Shown in pieces: positions 5,569 through 17,828 of a stretch of DNA of 24,876 bases. The stretch lies in the IMG/VR virus record IMGVR_UViG_3300048091_000428, positions 1 to 24,876 of that record; one strand, 5' to 3'. The first letter of the stretch is position 1; each line of letters opens with the position of its first letter. A program made the position numbers and the translations under genes. This DNA is from a virus. The notes beneath the pieces were generated by a model that worked only from the letters and a program-made list of their open reading frames with translations, was not told where the DNA came from and made no database searches.

Positions 5569-5958
5569 ATGGCTACCTACTTCACCGTGGCGGACGTTGA
5601 CGCCATCCTCGGGGCTTCGTGGGCTCCAGATGACAAGAAGGCCCGGGCGGTTTTGCAGGCGAATGCCTATATGACCTCGCTCAATCTGGTGGGCATCGAC
5701 ATGGACGCGATTCCCGACGAGGTGAAGCAGGCCGGCGCTGAGCTGGCGGTTGTCGCCTCTGAGGGCAAGTTGTACCAACAGCACACCGAGGGATCGCTGG
5801 AGGCCAAAACGGTGAAGGCCGGATCGGTGACAACCAGCAAGACATTCGCCTCGATCGACACCAGCAAGTCGACCGCGCTGCCCGATGGCGTCCAGTTCGC
5901 GCTTGGGCTGCTCGCGCAATGGCGCACCAGCGGCTTCAGCTTCAACGTGTACAGGTGA
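5569..5958 (+). CDS. Head-tail connector (DnaT_2-like, adaptor position)
   Basis: A 129 aa protein that begins with a short helical repeat region (VADVDAILGASW... AVLQANAYMT) and ends in a helix and strand (QFALGLLAQWRTSGFSFNV). The pattern resembles the small phage proteins labelled 'DnaT-like ssDNA-binding' in databases. In this genomic position they are generally neck adaptors that sit below the portal, so the DNA-binding name is probably misleading. A GGAGG site lies 5 bases before the ATG. It is the first of four small genes with touching or overlapping ends, typical of a head-tail joining cassette. The role is inferred mainly from order. Confidence 0.6.
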   Translation: MATYFTVADVDAILGASWAPDDKKARAVLQANAYMTSLNLVGIDMDAIPDEVKQAGAELAVVASEGKLYQQHTEGSLEAKTVKAGSVTTSKTFASIDTSKSTALPDGVQFALGLLAQWRTSGFSFNVYR

Positions 5959-5961
5959 CCT

Positions 5962-6321
5962 ATGGGCCTACGTGAAGAGATTCAGGCGGATCTGGCTGAG
6001 GCCTTCGACACTGACCTGGCGGACGCCGTGAAGCCATTCAGCGGTGGCGTGACGCTGCCGGGAGCGTGGGATCCGGTCACTGAGGCGGCGGGCGACCCCG
6101 TTGTCATCGCCTACACCGGCCGAGGTGTGTTCGACGCATTCAAGATCGCACAGGTCGACGGCGTGAACATCCGCGCCACCGACCAACTGCTGATCGCGCT
6201 GACCAACGAAACGATTGGCGGGGTTCCGGACATCGGCCACAAGATCAACGATTTCGACGTGGTCAATGTCCAGACTGACCCGTCCGGCGCCCACTACGAG
6301 ATCCAGCTGAGGAAAGTCTGA
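5962..6321 (+). CDS. Head-tail joining / stopper-like protein
   Basis: A 119 aa, mostly beta protein. A short N-terminal helix (REEIQADLAEAFDTDLADAV) is followed by strands carrying VIAYTGRGVFDAF and the later DQLLIALTNE. This is the pattern of small phage neck proteins that plug or complete the connector after packaging. Relatives sometimes carry the erroneous label 'glutamate 5-kinase'; no kinase motif is seen. The gene starts 3 bases after the preceding stop, and its own stop overlaps the start of the next gene. The function is assigned from size, fold impression and position between adaptor and tail-completion genes. Confidence 0.5.
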   Translation: MGLREEIQADLAEAFDTDLADAVKPFSGGVTLPGAWDPVTEAAGDPVVIAYTGRGVFDAFKIAQVDGVNIRATDQLLIALTNETIGGVPDIGHKINDFDVVNVQTDPSGAHYEIQLRKV

Positions 6322-6896
6322 TGACCACCAAAGCAGGCTGGAGCCATAGCCTCACCGAGTTCGCCGATCAGGCTGGCGAGGACATCACCCAGATGGCGCG
6401 CGTCATCGCGACCGCCATGCTCACGGAGGTGGTGAACCGCTCGCCGGTCGGCAACCCCGACCTGTGGCAGGCCAACGTGGCGCTGCGCACGAAGAACGTG
6501 GCGCTAGCTGATGCGTACGACGCGAACGTCGATGCTCGCAACGCTGCGCGCACCGGTGGCCGCGCCTACAAGAAGCTGACCAGGCGCGAGCGCGAGGAGA
6601 ACTATTTCGTCAAAGCGCAGGCAGCGGGGAAGGGCTACATCGGCGGCACGTTCCGAGGCAGTCACCTGGTATCGATCGGCACGCCCGACATGACTGTGAC
6701 CGACAACGTCGATCCCTCCGGCGGCGAAACGATCAGCAAAGGCAGCATGCTCATTAAGGCCTCGGGAAAATTTCCGGTCATCTATATCCAAACGAACAGC
6801 CCCTACGGCGAGATGCTGGAATTGGGGCATTCCACACAGGCGCCCGGCGGGGTTTATGACCTCGCGTTTATAGGCGTATCCGAGGCCTACAAATGA
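6321..6896 (+). CDS. Tail completion / neck protein (HK97 gp10-like)
   Basis: A 191 aa basic protein. It opens with a helix (LTEFADQAGEDITQMARVIATAML) followed by a Val-Val-Asn-Arg-Ser-Pro-Val-Gly turn. It ends with NSPYGEMLELGHSTQAPGGV, a block typical of HK97 gp10-like tail completion proteins, in which a Tyr/Leu-Glu-x-Gly-His-Ser/Thr segment is conserved. Such proteins connect the finished tail to the head. The middle part (about residues 60-115) is rich in Arg and Lys. The start overlaps the preceding stop in a TGATG arrangement, and the next gene overlaps by ATGA, so the cassette is translationally coupled. Confidence 0.65.
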   Translation: MTTKAGWSHSLTEFADQAGEDITQMARVIATAMLTEVVNRSPVGNPDLWQANVALRTKNVALADAYDANVDARNAARTGGRAYKKLTRREREENYFVKAQAAGKGYIGGTFRGSHLVSIGTPDMTVTDNVDPSGGETISKGSMLIKASGKFPVIYIQTNSPYGEMLELGHSTQAPGGVYDLAFIGVSEAYK

Positions 6897-7288
6897 CCTT
6901 CGAGCAGATCAGAGCGCTCATCACCGGACGCATGGTGGCCTTCACCGGCATTGACCAGGCGCGGATTGATTACCCGAACCAGCCGGAAGTGTTCACGCCG
7001 CCGGCGACCGGCCTCTGGTGCAGGCTGAATATCCAGTACGCCTCGGCCTTCATGGCTGGTATGGCCGACCGACCGCACACACGCAAGCCCGGGCAGATCA
7101 GCCTCCAGTGCTTCGCCAGAGAGCGCACTGGCACCAAGGCCATCAATGAACTGGCCGACGCGCTTGAGGCGCACTTCGCCTACTGGATGTCCGGCGAACT
7201 TGAATGCATGGAAGCCAGTCAAGTGGTCGCCGGTGAGTTCGAGGGCTTCTACCAAATCAACGTTAACGTTCGGTTTCGGGCCGGTTAA
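6893..7288 (+). CDS. Tail terminator protein (gpU-like, DUF4128-type)
   Basis: A 131 aa protein with the size and layout of tail terminators, which cap the tail tube when it reaches full length and provide the head-binding end. An N-terminal helix (TFEQIRALITGRMVAF) and a central helix (ERTGTKAINELADALEAHF) flank beta strands. The C-terminus (FYQINVNVRFRAG) is a strand ending typical of the family. It overlaps the previous gene by four bases. Its last 26 bases overlap, tail to tail, the 3' end of the minus-strand gene ending at 7263. The role is supported by position immediately upstream of the tube gene, apart from the inserted antisense gene. Confidence 0.65.
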   Translation: MTFEQIRALITGRMVAFTGIDQARIDYPNQPEVFTPPATGLWCRLNIQYASAFMAGMADRPHTRKPGQISLQCFARERTGTKAINELADALEAHFAYWMSGELECMEASQVVAGEFEGFYQINVNVRFRAG

Positions 7289-7901
7289 CTAGCGTGCCAC
7301 AGTATTGGTGAAGTGCGAACCAACGCTGCAACGGCACTAGTTTTTTGACGGCATCTTTGGTGTCTTTGTATTTAAAGAGGGGATCCTCTTTCCCGCGCTG
7401 CCAGTCCGCAAAAGCATGAACTATCACTGCGGAGACTTCATTTATGCACTCAATACTTCCGCCCTTGGAGTAGTACTCCGGAGTTCCACCGGCCAAATTT
7501 TTGAGCCTTAAATAAAATTGATGGCGCCAATGTTCTTCGTGACTTTCGCACTCTTTTAGTATGACTCGGTCGTTGATTTGCTTCTTGGCCTCCTTGTACT
7601 GCTCTATGAGCCTGGCGGATGTGAGCCAGCCAAGCCTGTCATTCGGTGGATTTTTACCGACTGGGGTCTGGTCGACTAAGGCGATAAACGATCGCTCTAG
7701 CGTTCGCACGGCATCGCCTAATAGTCGCTCGTTCTTCCTTGCTTTTGCGGTCGACCGAATAGTTACTGCCGCGAAAAAAGCGGAGGCTGCACCTGCGTAG
7801 GCGGCGCACACTTCGGCAGATGGGAAAAATCCAGCGACTGTTACGTAGAACGTAGATAGGTCCATAGGGAAGTCCGTTTCGTGGTGGCGGTTGGCAATCA
7901 T
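7263..7901 (-). CDS. Antisense accessory membrane protein (moron), function unknown
   Basis: The only long gene on the minus strand inside the tail operon. The 212 aa product has an N-terminal hydrophobic stretch (about residues 20-47, GFFPSAEVCAAYAGAASAFF), then a basic stop-transfer segment (RSTAKARKNER) and a charged, helical cytoplasmic-type domain with many Lys, Glu and aromatic residues. No known domain is recognised. Met-13 (MDLSTFYVTVAG) is an alternative start; neither start has a clear Shine-Dalgarno site. Its composition is visibly more AT-rich than the flanking tail genes, a sign of separate origin. Placement suggests expression in the lysogen rather than with the late genes. Superinfection exclusion or anti-phage defence at the membrane is possible but is inference only. 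Confidence 0.7.
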   Translation of the reverse strand: MIANRHHETDFPMDLSTFYVTVAGFFPSAEVCAAYAGAASAFFAAVTIRSTAKARKNERLLGDAVRTLERSFIALVDQTPVGKNPPNDRLGWLTSARLIEQYKEAKKQINDRVILKECESHEEHWRHQFYLRLKNLAGGTPEYYSKGGSIECINEVSAVIVHAFADWQRGKEDPLFKYKDTKDAVKKLVPLQRWFALHQYCGTLVNRPETER

Positions 7902-7962
7902 CAGTCATCATCAGAACATTTTTCAATAGTCCTAGACATACCCAATCATCGAAGTTGAGATG

Positions 7963-7983
7963 CCCGCGCCTGCGGGTTTTTTT
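7963..7983 (+). terminator. Intrinsic terminator before the tail tube gene
   Basis: A five-pair stem CCCGC/GCGGG with a GCCT loop is followed by seven T residues. It lies between the start of the antisense gene and the tube gene and points in the direction of the late operon. Confidence 0.75.
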
Positions 7984-8006
7984 ATGCCCGCGAATAGGAG
8001 GCTCCA

Positions 8007-8927
8007 ATGAGCTCTGGCGCAAAAGTCGTTTCACACATCATCGCCGAGGTTGCGCCCGGCGTTACCCCAGCCGGAACTTGGGACACGCTGCGCCTCACCG
8101 GCAACGCGCTGACCCCGACGGTCAACACTCAGGTCAGTGACGAGATCACCGACACTCGGCTGAGCCAGGGCTCAGTCGCCACCAGCATCGATATCGGCGG
8201 CGACCTGACGGCAGAGTTCTCGTTCGGTTCGTTCGATAAGCTCCTCGAAGCTGCTTTCTACGGCGTCTGGACGGCCGACGTGCTGCGAGTGGGCGATACT
8301 CGCCACACCTTCAGCATCGCCAAAGGCTACAACGATGTCGGCGTCTATGGCGTGTTCAAAGGCGCGCATGTTTCGACCTTCGCTCTCGACATCCCGTCCG
8401 ACGGCAAGATCACAACTACCTTCAACATGGCCTGCTTGGATTACGCCGACAGCGAAGTTTCGATCGTTGTCTCGCCGAATGCGCCGACCACCACGCCGTT
8501 CCTTTCGAACAACAACGTCGGCACGATTCTGGTCAATGGCCAGTCGCTGGAGGGCGTGGCCTGCGTATCGGCCATGACCGTCAACCTCGACAACAGCCTC
8601 CAGACTCAGCGTTGCCTTGGCTCTGACAGCCTAGGCCCGGGTGCGCACATCGCTACCGAGGCTGCCATCACTGGCAGCATCACGCTGGCCTGGTCGAAAC
8701 GGGCTTGGGAAATCTGGAAGAACACTTTCACGCGGACGCCAATCGCCGTTGTGTTCCCGATCACCGATGCGCTGGGCAACAAGTACATCTTCAGCTTCCC
8801 TGCGGTGGAGGTTGACGGCGAGCTGCCGAACGGCGGTAAGCGCGACCTGATTGAGGTCACGCTGAACTACACCGTCGCCAAGCTCAGCCCGACCATCACC
8901 CGTGAAGCGGCTGATCCAACCCCGTAA
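8007..8927 (+). CDS. Major tail tube protein
   Basis: A 306 aa protein that would stack as hexameric rings to form the tail tube. The N-terminus (GAKVVSHIIAEVAPGVTP, then WDTLRLTGNALTPTV) and the block around residues 55-80 (GSVATSIDIGGDLTAEFSFG) match the Phage_tube_2-type tail tube family. The final 60 residues (FSFPAVEVDGELPNGGKRD onward) are the closing strands of the tube fold. The ATG follows an ideal AGGAGG site. The position upstream of the frameshifted chaperone pair and the tape measure is the conserved siphovirus order. A large stem-loop follows the stop. Confidence 0.85.
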   Translation: MSSGAKVVSHIIAEVAPGVTPAGTWDTLRLTGNALTPTVNTQVSDEITDTRLSQGSVATSIDIGGDLTAEFSFGSFDKLLEAAFYGVWTADVLRVGDTRHTFSIAKGYNDVGVYGVFKGAHVSTFALDIPSDGKITTTFNMACLDYADSEVSIVVSPNAPTTTPFLSNNNVGTILVNGQSLEGVACVSAMTVNLDNSLQTQRCLGSDSLGPGAHIATEAAITGSITLAWSKRAWEIWKNTFTRTPIAVVFPITDALGNKYIFSFPAVEVDGELPNGGKRDLIEVTLNYTVAKLSPTITREAADPTP

Positions 8928-14247: not shown

Positions 14248-14646
14248 ATGCGCTACCGAGACTGGACAACCCGTCTGAACGACGTGATCAAGGCCGCCCA
14301 AGAGCGGCCTTTTTCATGGGGCGAATTTGACTGCTGCCTGTTTGCGGCTGATTGCACAGCAGCGATTTGCGGCGTCGATCCCGCCGAGAGCTATCGCGGC
14401 AAATACACCACCGAGACTGGTGCCAAGCGGCAGTTGAAGAAGCAGCACGGCAGCCTTGAGGCGGCATGGGATGTCCATTTTTCCCGGGTGCCGCTGACCT
14501 TCATCCAGCGTGGCGACGTTGTGCTGTACGACGCGCCCGGAGGCCGAAGCATGGCTGTGTTCTGGGCTGGGGATTTTTGGGCAACGACCGATGACGGCGC
14601 ATCCCGAGTCGAATGCGCGCCACTGGCCGCTTGGAGGGTTGAATGA
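14248..14646 (+). CDS. Tail tip peptidase-like protein (DUF6950, NlpC/P60 relative)
   Basis: A 132 aa protein. Near residue 26 it has FSWGEFDCCLFAAD, where the Asp-Cys pair and following helix correspond to the nucleophile block of NlpC/P60 cysteine peptidases. A later GDVVLYDAPGGRSMAVFW segment sits where the catalytic His would be expected, but no clear His is present, so peptidase activity is doubtful. It matches DUF6950 proteins that occupy the gpK position in many phages, next to the central tip protein. The start at 14248 (MRYRDW) is preferred over longer in-frame alternatives because those overlap the preceding gene by more than 150 bases. The stop overlaps the next gene in ATGA. An intrinsic-terminator-like element lies inside codons 15-23. 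Confidence 0.7.
   Translation: MRYRDWTTRLNDVIKAAQERPFSWGEFDCCLFAADCTAAICGVDPAESYRGKYTTETGAKRQLKKQHGSLEAAWDVHFSRVPLTFIQRGDVVLYDAPGGRSMAVFWAGDFWATTDDGASRVECAPLAAWRVE
14291..14314 (+). terminator. Terminator-like element inside the DUF6950 gene
   Basis: A perfect seven-pair stem (AGGCCGC/GCGGCCT) with a six-base loop is followed by four further T residues (five in a row including the stem end). It lies wholly inside the coding sequence, about 45 bases after the start codon. It has the form of a working intrinsic terminator, although the T-tract is short. Confidence 0.5.
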
Positions 14647-17600
14647 GCGGCGGCGTCAGAAAACTTGCCTCAATTGTAGTTGGTGCGGTCGTTGGCTTTG
14701 CACAGGGTGGGCCGTGGGGCGCCGTTGCAGGTGCGGCGCTGGCCTTCTATGCGGCCGAGCAGCAGGAAAAGCTCAACACCAAGTCGCCGCTGCGTGACAA
14801 CGAACCTTCGGCGCAGACCGTGCGATCGTCAAAAGCGCCCGTGCGCTTCATTCTCGGCCGCGTTTCAACCGGTGGCGTGCTGGTATGGGCGCAAGAGCAG
14901 GCCGGCGCACAAGGTGAGGGGGAATGGCTTCACCTCGTATACGTGCTGTGCGAAGGCGCGATCGATGCTCTGGAAAACATCTACCTCGGCGAGGAAGACA
15001 TCGGCTCGTTTGGCCCTTTGGCCACCTACGAACTTGTGGTGAACCCAACTCAGGTGAACGCGTTTCTGAAAGCCAACTGCCCAGACTGGAAGGACAGCCA
15101 GATCGGGCGCGGTCTGTCCTACGTGCGCGTTTCGCTTCAGTACAGTGCTGAGAAGTTTCCGTCCGGTATTCCCGACACCCGCTTCGTGGTTCGCGGTCGT
15201 AACGATATTTACGACCCGCGCAGCGGTACCGCCGGTTACAGCGCCAATACCGCGCTGCACTTGCTGTGGTTCCTTCGCAACCGTTGCGGTGTGCCTGATG
15301 ACGAGATCGTGTTCGAGACGTTCGCCAGTGGTGCCAACGTCTGCGATGAGGCGGTCACCAATGCCGACGGATCTGTCAGTCAGCGCTATCGAACTGCTTG
15401 CGTGATCGGCGCCGACGAACAACGCACCGGTGTCCTGCAGAAGTTGGAAGCCGCGTCTGGCGGACACCTGCTCCGCGTTGGCGGTCGATGGATGTTTCAG
15501 GCCGGTGCTTACTACGGCCCGTACGACTTCGAGATCACCGAGGACATGGTGATCGGCACCGTAACCGGCAGCACCGAGCCTACCAACGACTCGGCAATCA
15601 ACACCGTTCGAGGCACATTCATCGACCCGGAACAGTCTTGGACGGAGACGGACTATCCGGAAGTCAGCGTCGCAGAGTGGATTGTTGAGGACGGCGGAGA
15701 AGCAGCGGAAACGCTCACCTATTCGTATGTCACCGATCCTTACCAAGCCCAGCGTCTGGCAAACATGGAGCTCCGCCGGCGGCGGGCTGGCGGTGCGATC
15801 AGCATCCCGATGAACTTCGCTGGTTACAACTGCCGACCTGGTCGCGTGGTGCGCGTTAACCTGCCGTCGCTGAACATCCTTGGCGAGTTCATTGTCTCGG
15901 ACTGGTCGATGGGCGACAGCGAAGGCTGCACCGTTCAGGTCAAACAATACGAAGCCGCGATCTTCGGTGACGCCGTTGGCCAGCCCTATAACCCGATCGG
16001 CTTTATCAACCTGCCATCTGGTGGACTCGGCACTCCGACTGCGCTGACATGGGCGCAAGACACCACTGCCGAAGTGACACAGGGCGTGTTGTCGTGGATT
16101 CCGCCCTCCGGAATCGTGAAGGAATACATCGTAATCGTCCGTCAGGGTGCGACCGCAATTCAGTCGCACAACGTACCCGCAACGTCCACCGAGTGCGCGA
16201 TCAACGGCCTGCCCTCCGGCAATTACACGATGAGTGTGGCTGCAGTTGGGCCTATGGCACGCTCCGGCGAGGTAACGATCACCGTCAGCATCAACGGCCC
16301 GCCAATACCGGAAAGCTGCGTGGTGCAATCCTCGATCGACAGCATCGTCTTGATTCCGAGCAACTCTCAGACCGGGTTGAATGGCGGCACCTACGAATAC
16401 TTCTTCAGCACATCACCCACCGCGACCGCTGCACAGGCGGACTATCTAGGGCAGGGCCTTTCCTTCACCCATACCGGTCTTGGATTCTGGACGAATTATT
16501 ACTATTTCATCCGTTCATCGAACGCTTACGGGAAAAGTGCTTTTCTTTATGTGCCTGCGCAAACCTCCAACAATGTTTCGGCTTACTTGGCCGCGCTGGC
16601 CGGCAAGATTGAAAAAACGGAGCTTGGTCAGCACCTGAGTGATCGCATTGACTTGATCGACGGTGACGGGCCCGGCTCGGTGAATGAGCGCATAGGTGAG
16701 CTTCAGACCGAAATAGATAGCTTGGTGGACGCTCTGGTTTATGTTCCCACAGACGCCTATGTCAGGGACAACACAGTCCGGGTAGGGGATAACCTTTGGA
16801 CAGCGATTGCTGATGTGCCTGCGGCAGCCAACGGTTCAAATGCCCCGCCGAATCCGACCTACTGGGTTAACAGCGGTCAGTCGATCAGAACGGCAAATGC
16901 TTTGGCCGCGCAGGTCACCAAAAACACCGCCGACATTGTCACCGTTGACGGGAAAACCACAGCGACTGCAACTCAGCTTCAAGCGCTGAAAGCCTCGTCC
17001 CGTGATGACGATGGGGAAGGGGAGCTGGCCGATGCGTTAAAAGGCTGGGACTCGACCGCCAGCTTTGCACAGGAAGTGAAGACGACGGCTGAGCGGGACT
17101 TTGCGCAGACTCAGCGCATCACAACGATGGATTCGCGGGTTGGCAATAATGAATCGAAGATTGCCATTGTTGAAACGACTGTAGCGACCAACCAGGAATC
17201 GACCGCGCAGCAGTTTGCAACATTGACCGCTTCGGTTGGCAGTAATCAGGCCGCGATTCAGTCCGAGTCGACAGTCCGATCCAATGCTGACGGCGCGCTT
17301 TCAACTCGGATAGACACCGCACAAGTCACTGCCGATAACGCGTCGGCCGCGGTGCAGACGGTAAGTCAAGCGCAGGCGTCCACGGATGGAAAACTGTCGA
17401 CCATGTGGTCGGTGAAGATGCAGGTCGCCGCTGGTGGTCAGTACGTCGCGGCGGGTATTGGGCTTGGCATCGAAAATACCGGTGCTGGGCTGCAAAGCCA
17501 ATTCTTGGTCAGCGCGGATCGTTTCGCCATCGTGAACACCATTGCCGGCGGAGCCATCTCGGTTCCGTTCGCGGTGCAAGGCGGCCAGGTGTTCATGAAC

Positions 17601-17828
17601 TCTGCGTTTATCCAGGACGGCAGTATCACGATGCTGAAAATCGGTCAGTACCTGCAATCTGATAATTACGTTGCAGGTTCTCAGGGGTGGCGATTGGATA
17701 AGGCAGGAAATCTGGAGTTTAACGGCCCGGCGCCGGGAGGTGGCAGGCTGACCATGACCAACCGCGCCATCAAGGTCTACGACCAGAACGGCGTCAAACG
17801 GGTTCAATTGGGGGACTTGGACGCATGA
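14643..17828 (+). CDS. Central tail tip / host specificity protein (gpJ-like)
   Basis: A 1061 aa protein, the large tip protein that closes the tail tube and carries receptor-contact domains. The N-terminus has a Gly/Ala-rich membrane-like segment (residues 8-36) as in gpJ relatives. The core from about residue 65 (VRFILGRVSTGGVLVWAQ onward) is the hub domain. A fibronectin type III-like domain lies at about 460-555. A carbohydrate-binding-like motif with aromatic Trp/Tyr spacing (DNTVRVGDNLWTAIADVP, then TYWVNSGQS) lies near 700-745. A helical repeat region follows at 750-900, and a DUF1983-type C-terminus closes the protein (WSVKMQVAAGGQYVAAGIGLG to the end). The 1061 aa length is close to lambda gpJ (1132 aa). 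It is translationally coupled on both sides. Confidence 0.9.
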   Translation: MSGGVRKLASIVVGAVVGFAQGGPWGAVAGAALAFYAAEQQEKLNTKSPLRDNEPSAQTVRSSKAPVRFILGRVSTGGVLVWAQEQAGAQGEGEWLHLVYVLCEGAIDALENIYLGEEDIGSFGPLATYELVVNPTQVNAFLKANCPDWKDSQIGRGLSYVRVSLQYSAEKFPSGIPDTRFVVRGRNDIYDPRSGTAGYSANTALHLLWFLRNRCGVPDDEIVFETFASGANVCDEAVTNADGSVSQRYRTACVIGADEQRTGVLQKLEAASGGHLLRVGGRWMFQAGAYYGPYDFEITEDMVIGTVTGSTEPTNDSAINTVRGTFIDPEQSWTETDYPEVSVAEWIVEDGGEAAETLTYSYVTDPYQAQRLANMELRRRRAGGAISIPMNFAGYNCRPGRVVRVNLPSLNILGEFIVSDWSMGDSEGCTVQVKQYEAAIFGDAVGQPYNPIGFINLPSGGLGTPTALTWAQDTTAEVTQGVLSWIPPSGIVKEYIVIVRQGATAIQSHNVPATSTECAINGLPSGNYTMSVAAVGPMARSGEVTITVSINGPPIPESCVVQSSIDSIVLIPSNSQTGLNGGTYEYFFSTSPTATAAQADYLGQGLSFTHTGLGFWTNYYYFIRSSNAYGKSAFLYVPAQTSNNVSAYLAALAGKIEKTELGQHLSDRIDLIDGDGPGSVNERIGELQTEIDSLVDALVYVPTDAYVRDNTVRVGDNLWTAIADVPAAANGSNAPPNPTYWVNSGQSIRTANALAAQVTKNTADIVTVDGKTTATATQLQALKASSRDDDGEGELADALKGWDSTASFAQEVKTTAERDFAQTQRITTMDSRVGNNESKIAIVETTVATNQESTAQQFATLTASVGSNQAAIQSESTVRSNADGALSTRIDTAQVTADNASAAVQTVSQAQASTDGKLSTMWSVKMQVAAGGQYVAAGIGLGIENTGAGLQSQFLVSADRFAIVNTIAGGAISVPFAVQGGQVFMNSAFIQDGSITMLKIGQYLQSDNYVAGSQGWRLDKAGNLEFNGPAPGGGRLTMTNRAIKVYDQNGVKRVQLGDLDA

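Follow-up and report, generated by a model that had tools for sequence, protein, structure and literature searches.

An antisense, moron-like gene exchanged at the tail terminator–tube junction of Pseudomonas siphophages

The gene and its position in the tail operon

The window analysed here is the whole of a 24,876-base IMG/VR virus record. Its source is a Pseudomonas phage, whose relatives form a group of Pseudomonas siphophages. Between the tail terminator gene (6893–7288, plus strand; phrog_179, E 9.3e-38) and the tail tube gene (8007–8927, plus strand; phrog_290, E 2.3e-89) lies a gene on the minus strand, referred to here as X. A preliminary description gave X as a 212-codon minus-strand ORF at 7263–7901; these coordinates are exact, but the true start is probably the ATG at 7865, giving a gene of 200 amino acids plus stop (7263–7865). 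In the family alignment, X proteins begin at the Met of codon 13 of the longer ORF, and the −10 hexamer of a promoter-like pair (7902–7897) overlaps the upstream ATG at 7901, which together make the 200-residue protein the likelier product. The in-frame extension (7866–7901, minus strand) is absent from most relatives and, judging from the start alignment and the promoter overlap, is probably not translated.

At its other end, X was described as overlapping the terminator gene tail to tail by 26 bp (7263–7288) and as having captured its stop codon from phage sequence. Both statements fit the window allele and a few relatives but not the greater part of the family. The stop lies inside the terminator gene in the window, in its near relatives L002, L003 and L013, and also in L004, L019 and L088, whereas in 15 listed loci the X stop triplet simply overlaps the stop of the terminator gene (a 4-nt CTAA/TTAA overlap). 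The AT-rich character of the gene is clear, with a G+C of 0.47–0.55 across X against about 0.58–0.66 in the flanks. No tRNA or Rfam element was found in the window.

A conserved family of probably membrane-anchored proteins

The relatives of X that were detected come from 17 viral contigs and from two Pseudomonas genomes. X is a real gene and more than a chance ORF, because 25 relatives keep the same length and motifs, at identities down to 33%, and dN is well under dS. Of the columns of the 25-member alignment, 22 are invariant, and several of these fall in the WLTxARLI and ECESHEEHWRHQF-like motifs. Between window X and its closest allele, in L002, dN is 0.02 and dS 0.11 (dN/dS ~0.2), and on these estimates the protein sequence is under purifying selection.

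As the preliminary description had it, X resembles no known domain. Sequence-profile searches of Pfam, PHROGs, NCBIfam, PADLOC and PDB returned no credible relative, and the PADLOC 2.0.0 family models gave no match below E 0.035 to any of the 25 members. Among 50,697 phage records none contained a match to X, although 280 carry a homologue of the tail tube. The family appears to be undescribed in the libraries searched, while the kind of gene is already known. Two candidate assignments were dropped along the way. The stretch ECESHEEHWRH was discarded as a conserved metal or catalytic site on finding that C, H and E are not constant among the chromosomal relatives, which leaves W, R and F as invariant. 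An AbiC-type link, suggested by the N termini of the L196 and L199 relatives, had no Pfam match.

The protein can be divided into a hydrophobic N-terminal segment (about residues 18–36) and a helical, presumably cytosolic domain, as judged from hydropathy and the AlphaFold model. The N-terminal membrane segment that had been proposed corresponds to a real hydrophobic stretch, Ala/Gly-rich and followed by RSTAKARKNER, but its hydropathy is borderline: the Kyte-Doolittle 19-residue maximum is 1.51 in window X and 1.3–2.4 in the family. The arrangement suggests an inner-membrane anchor with the C terminus in the cytosol, at a borderline hydropathy value. The C-terminal domain is charged in the window allele, as described (+7), but ranges from +9 to −3 across the family, so that a basic charge is not a family trait. 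In the AlphaFold model of X most blocks of the helical domain have a pLDDT of about 80–97 and the N terminus is poorly predicted, and a model of a chromosomal relative shows a long helical hairpin with a similar helical domain. The alignment used for folding left out L177, a row from the plasmid collection. No structure matched either model at E < 0.1 when both were compared with the PDB and one also with BFVD.

The terminator–tube junction as a cargo site

The X cassette occupies a cargo interval (7289–7961) bordered on the left by the terminator gene and on the right by a hairpin with a T-run (7962–7984, plus strand) that is kept in empty and filled sites alike; the tube gene forms the right flank. 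Junctions were gathered through the tail tube and terminator proteins rather than through X. Among 91 distinct junctions, which are not independent events and which, being drawn from the best 80 loci per query, describe near relatives of the window only, 43 are empty, with 62–70 bp between the two flanking genes, and 18 hold X, antisense every time. The remainder hold a sense tail-tip-like gene related to PF09327 (23), an antisense NUMOD4/HNH endonuclease (2; L054 and L094) or other small ORFs (5). Of the 36 close backbones, 13 carry X, 12 are empty, 10 carry the tip-like gene and 1 a small ORF. In the isolated phage PSA-2T the junction is empty. Insertion at a variable-gene hotspot is thereby upheld by the very comparison that the preliminary description had proposed, since in close relatives the junction is empty or holds unrelated genes; the contrary outcome, in which all related phages carry the gene, was not found, as 43 of the 91 sampled junctions are empty. 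On trees of the flanking genes the presence of X requires at least 12–14 state changes, compared with 16.6–16.8 when labels are shuffled, and its presence is therefore nearly scattered.

X alleles are also exchanged as cassettes between phages, to judge from pairwise comparison. For instance, L006 and L007 have identical X genes (dS 0.01) but terminator and tube genes that differ at dS 0.42 and 0.55; nucleotide identity is 98–100% over X and its upstream region and mostly 80–93% on either side. The reverse is seen between the window and L037, where the flanking proteins are 94–96% identical and X only 45%.

Several other features of these junctions and their surroundings can be recorded here. 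The hairpin with its T-run is kept on the late strand in 90 of 102 terminator–tube junctions, with or without cargo, and was not detected in its standard form in the NUMOD4/HNH junctions of L054 and L094. Its form suggests an intrinsic terminator placed among the tail genes, an arrangement that could be accounted for by antitermination, by RNA processing or by dosage control. The commonest sense occupant (L025, L033, L085 and others) is similar to the C-terminal portion of the tail-tip protein that the phage itself encodes (14643–17828 in the window; PF09327), but its segments come in another order. A second variable region lies between the tail assembly chaperone and tape measure genes (L002, 1079–3154; L006, 246–2867); this region upstream of the tape measure has a G+C of about 0.53, and its genes, read by eye from the sequence, we take to be Arc-type DNA-binding-like (antisense) and Bro-N/antirepressor-like (sense). 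Between the neck and head-closure genes of L006, at about 6530–6660, there is an insert of ~130 bp relative to L007, which on this alignment adds one more minor point of variation among the connector genes.

A promoter-like site facing the late operon

Upstream of X lies a promoter-like pair, TTGAAA-18-GATGAT (7926–7897, minus strand), that ends 31 nt ahead of the ATG at 7865, and comparable sites stand at the same distance in all 19 distinct alleles. With a threshold of at least 7 of 12 consensus bases, a pair ending 27–38 nt before the start was found in 19 of 19 junction alleles, which are related to each other; in shuffled sequences such a pair occurred at 5.1 loci on average and at 12 at most. 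Two sub-types of the site can be seen, TGGTAA...CATAAT and TGGATT...TAGCAT. This recurrence is support rather than proof that X has its own promoter, because the alleles are related.

From the opposite orientation of X, the preliminary description had argued for expression in the lysogen. A promoter of its own, pointing antisense to the tail genes, is supported by the promoter-like site, and expression in the lysogen is what we infer from that arrangement. No minus-strand terminator-like site was found in 6800–8100, and for this reason transcripts of X are predicted possibly to read through into the connector genes.

By a published definition (PMC4378225), a moron usually consists of one coding region that separates two genes found side by side in related phages, and usually has its own promoter, its own terminator and an unlike base composition, some morons being expressed from a repressed prophage. 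X is a single coding region between genes adjacent in relatives, and its base composition is unlike that of its neighbours. A terminator of its own was not found for X in 6800–8100, and for this reason X is best filed as moron-like cargo rather than as a textbook moron.

Relatives at other genomic sites

X is not confined to the tail genes. In L009, L010, L015, L016 and L195 it is antisense elsewhere in the phage genome, with replication- or NinG-like genes on one side and holin-like or terminase genes on the other. In L194, where it is also antisense, its neighbours are a Mu-F-like head gene and the gene preceding the capsid. Some of these neighbours are named from the sequence itself rather than by family search. 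In more distant relatives, N-terminal hydrophobic helices are followed by the same domain; about 1% of the proteobacterial genomes sampled carry such a relative on a chromosome, and one plasmid, a Paraburkholderia megaplasmid (L177), has one too. The 44 neighbour proteins of these chromosomal and plasmid relatives gave few family matches, counted without a background control, two of the matches being unplaced; clear defence neighbours of the chromosomal relatives were not found among these 44.

Two of these settings can be described individually. On the megaplasmid, the relative (5881–6528) adjoins genes for an HSDR_N-like nuclease and a GHKL ATPase (6541–7713 and 7646–8872) with weak matches to restriction-enzyme families, and from its gene content the surroundings may possibly be a defence neighbourhood. 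In L196 (7290–9024), the gene ahead of a distant Pseudomonas relative of X, and on its strand, is predicted to encode a second membrane protein; the two adjoin a resolvase-like gene and may possibly form a two-gene unit.

Function and alternative explanations

That X is a moron cassette is well supported by these comparisons: it would be gained, lost and exchanged at the terminator–tube junction, with the conserved flanks probably providing the sites of recombination. We read it as a moron expressed in the lysogen because of its cassette behaviour, its own promoter-like site, its fixed opposition to the late genes and its strong constraint. With its own promoter reading against the late genes, X could be active in the lysogen at a time when the late operon is silent. 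Its product of about 200 residues would be held at the inner membrane by the N-terminal segment, with the helical domain in the cytosol, and would most likely serve to protect the lysogen against other phages by superinfection exclusion or abortive infection at the membrane. On prophage induction, late transcription passing through X in antisense would tend to shut the gene off. An anti-phage role is our first choice because multi-allele prophage genes swapped between near-identical phages would most often concern phage–phage conflict. A prophage-expressed moron whose membrane-acting exclusion or abortive protein is directed against superinfecting phages is a reading that we hold with about even confidence. 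The anti-phage or exclusion protein of the preliminary description accordingly keeps the standing of a proposal, the homology, fold and structure searches having been run and having given no match in a defence library or among known structures. Against our reading weigh the absence of a known fold or defence match, the borderline membrane segment, the absence of a minus-strand terminator-like site in 6800–8100 and the lack of a partner or self-immunity gene in the cassette; the promoter statistics, moreover, rest on related alleles. A bolder version, in which X founds a widespread, undescribed membrane-anchored helical superfamily that blocks or senses phage at the inner membrane and in which the fixed antisense placement in late operons is a self-immunity switch, late transcription silencing X once its own prophage is induced, is in our estimation speculative and rather unlikely.

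The main rival is a lysogenic-conversion membrane protein that alters the host envelope, stress response or growth physiology and has no part in defence. The distant relatives, single genes on ordinary chromosomes in about one in a hundred of the proteobacterial genomes sampled, would suit such a role, as would their want of clear defence neighbours, but the swapping and diversification of alleles at a phage cargo site may be more typical of conflict genes, and we consider this possible though on the unlikely side. A counter-defence protein, anti-CRISPR- or anti-restriction-like and made early from its own promoter for the benefit of the incoming phage, is improbable. Pseudomonas anti-CRISPR regions are likewise marked by own promoters and low-G+C cargo in structural operons (PMC4378225), but a probable membrane anchor would be unusual for inhibitors of this type, and relatives on chromosomes outside obvious prophages are hard to explain in this way.

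That X lies among the tail genes and reads towards the terminator gene, with no minus-strand terminator found, could also indicate a tail component or a cis-acting antisense-RNA regulator of tail genes. This is largely refuted and hardly credible, because X swaps, goes missing and sits at non-tail sites: nearly half of the sampled junctions in the same tail backbone are without it, it occurs elsewhere in phage genomes and on chromosomes, and its protein sequence is under selection. The preliminary description had named a tail role as an outcome that would count against its proposal, and this outcome was not found. A selfish element spreading only by insertion at the terminator–tube junction, in the manner of homing endonucleases, is very improbable; the presence of antisense NUMOD4/HNH genes at the same junction speaks for it, but the searches gave X neither a nuclease domain nor a fold match, and it is present at several sites unrelated to one another.

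What emerges is a junction that repeatedly takes up cargo in one group of Pseudomonas siphophages, and at which the X family is swapped while the tail genes stay put. If X is anti-phage, the natural allele swaps and empty-site controls can be used to find what it recognises, and antisense placement in late operons may be considered as a means of self-immunity.

Comparison with known systems

The closest precedent, by analogy between unrelated proteins, is Tab of the Pseudomonas aeruginosa phage JBD26, an 83-residue protein encoded on the minus strand and transcribed from the prophage by its own promoter (PMC10884400). The Tab gene lies between the terminase genes in the late operon, is paired with a plus-strand anti-Tab gene, and blocks tail assembly of other phages (PMC10884400). 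Both Tab and X are minus-strand genes in the late operon of a Pseudomonas phage; Tab is a moron with its own promoter (PMC10884400), and X is moron-like, with a promoter-like site upstream. X differs in its 200 residues, its site between terminator and tube, its hydrophobic N terminus and its lack of a partner gene.

In its predicted protein layout X resembles PdpSau of Staphylococcus prophages and the lactococcal AbiP, which have an N-terminal membrane helix followed by a charged cytosolic domain; PdpSau is also, like X, accessory, and takes the place of other cargo at a single site in the prophage (PMC10127798). These proteins carry an OB-fold-like nucleic-acid-binding domain and come from Gram-positive hosts (PMC10127798), whereas X has an all-helical domain in its model and no PADLOC match. 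By the tests made, X is outside both the Tab and the PdpSau families. The variable regions (RGPs) and morons of Pseudomonas Mu-like phages resemble X in that individual genes interrupt the order of core genes and are missing from close relatives, a number of them being of low G+C, as described in the available text (PMC4378225). They belong to another phage group, and neither the X junction nor the X family was found in that part of the source (PMC4378225).
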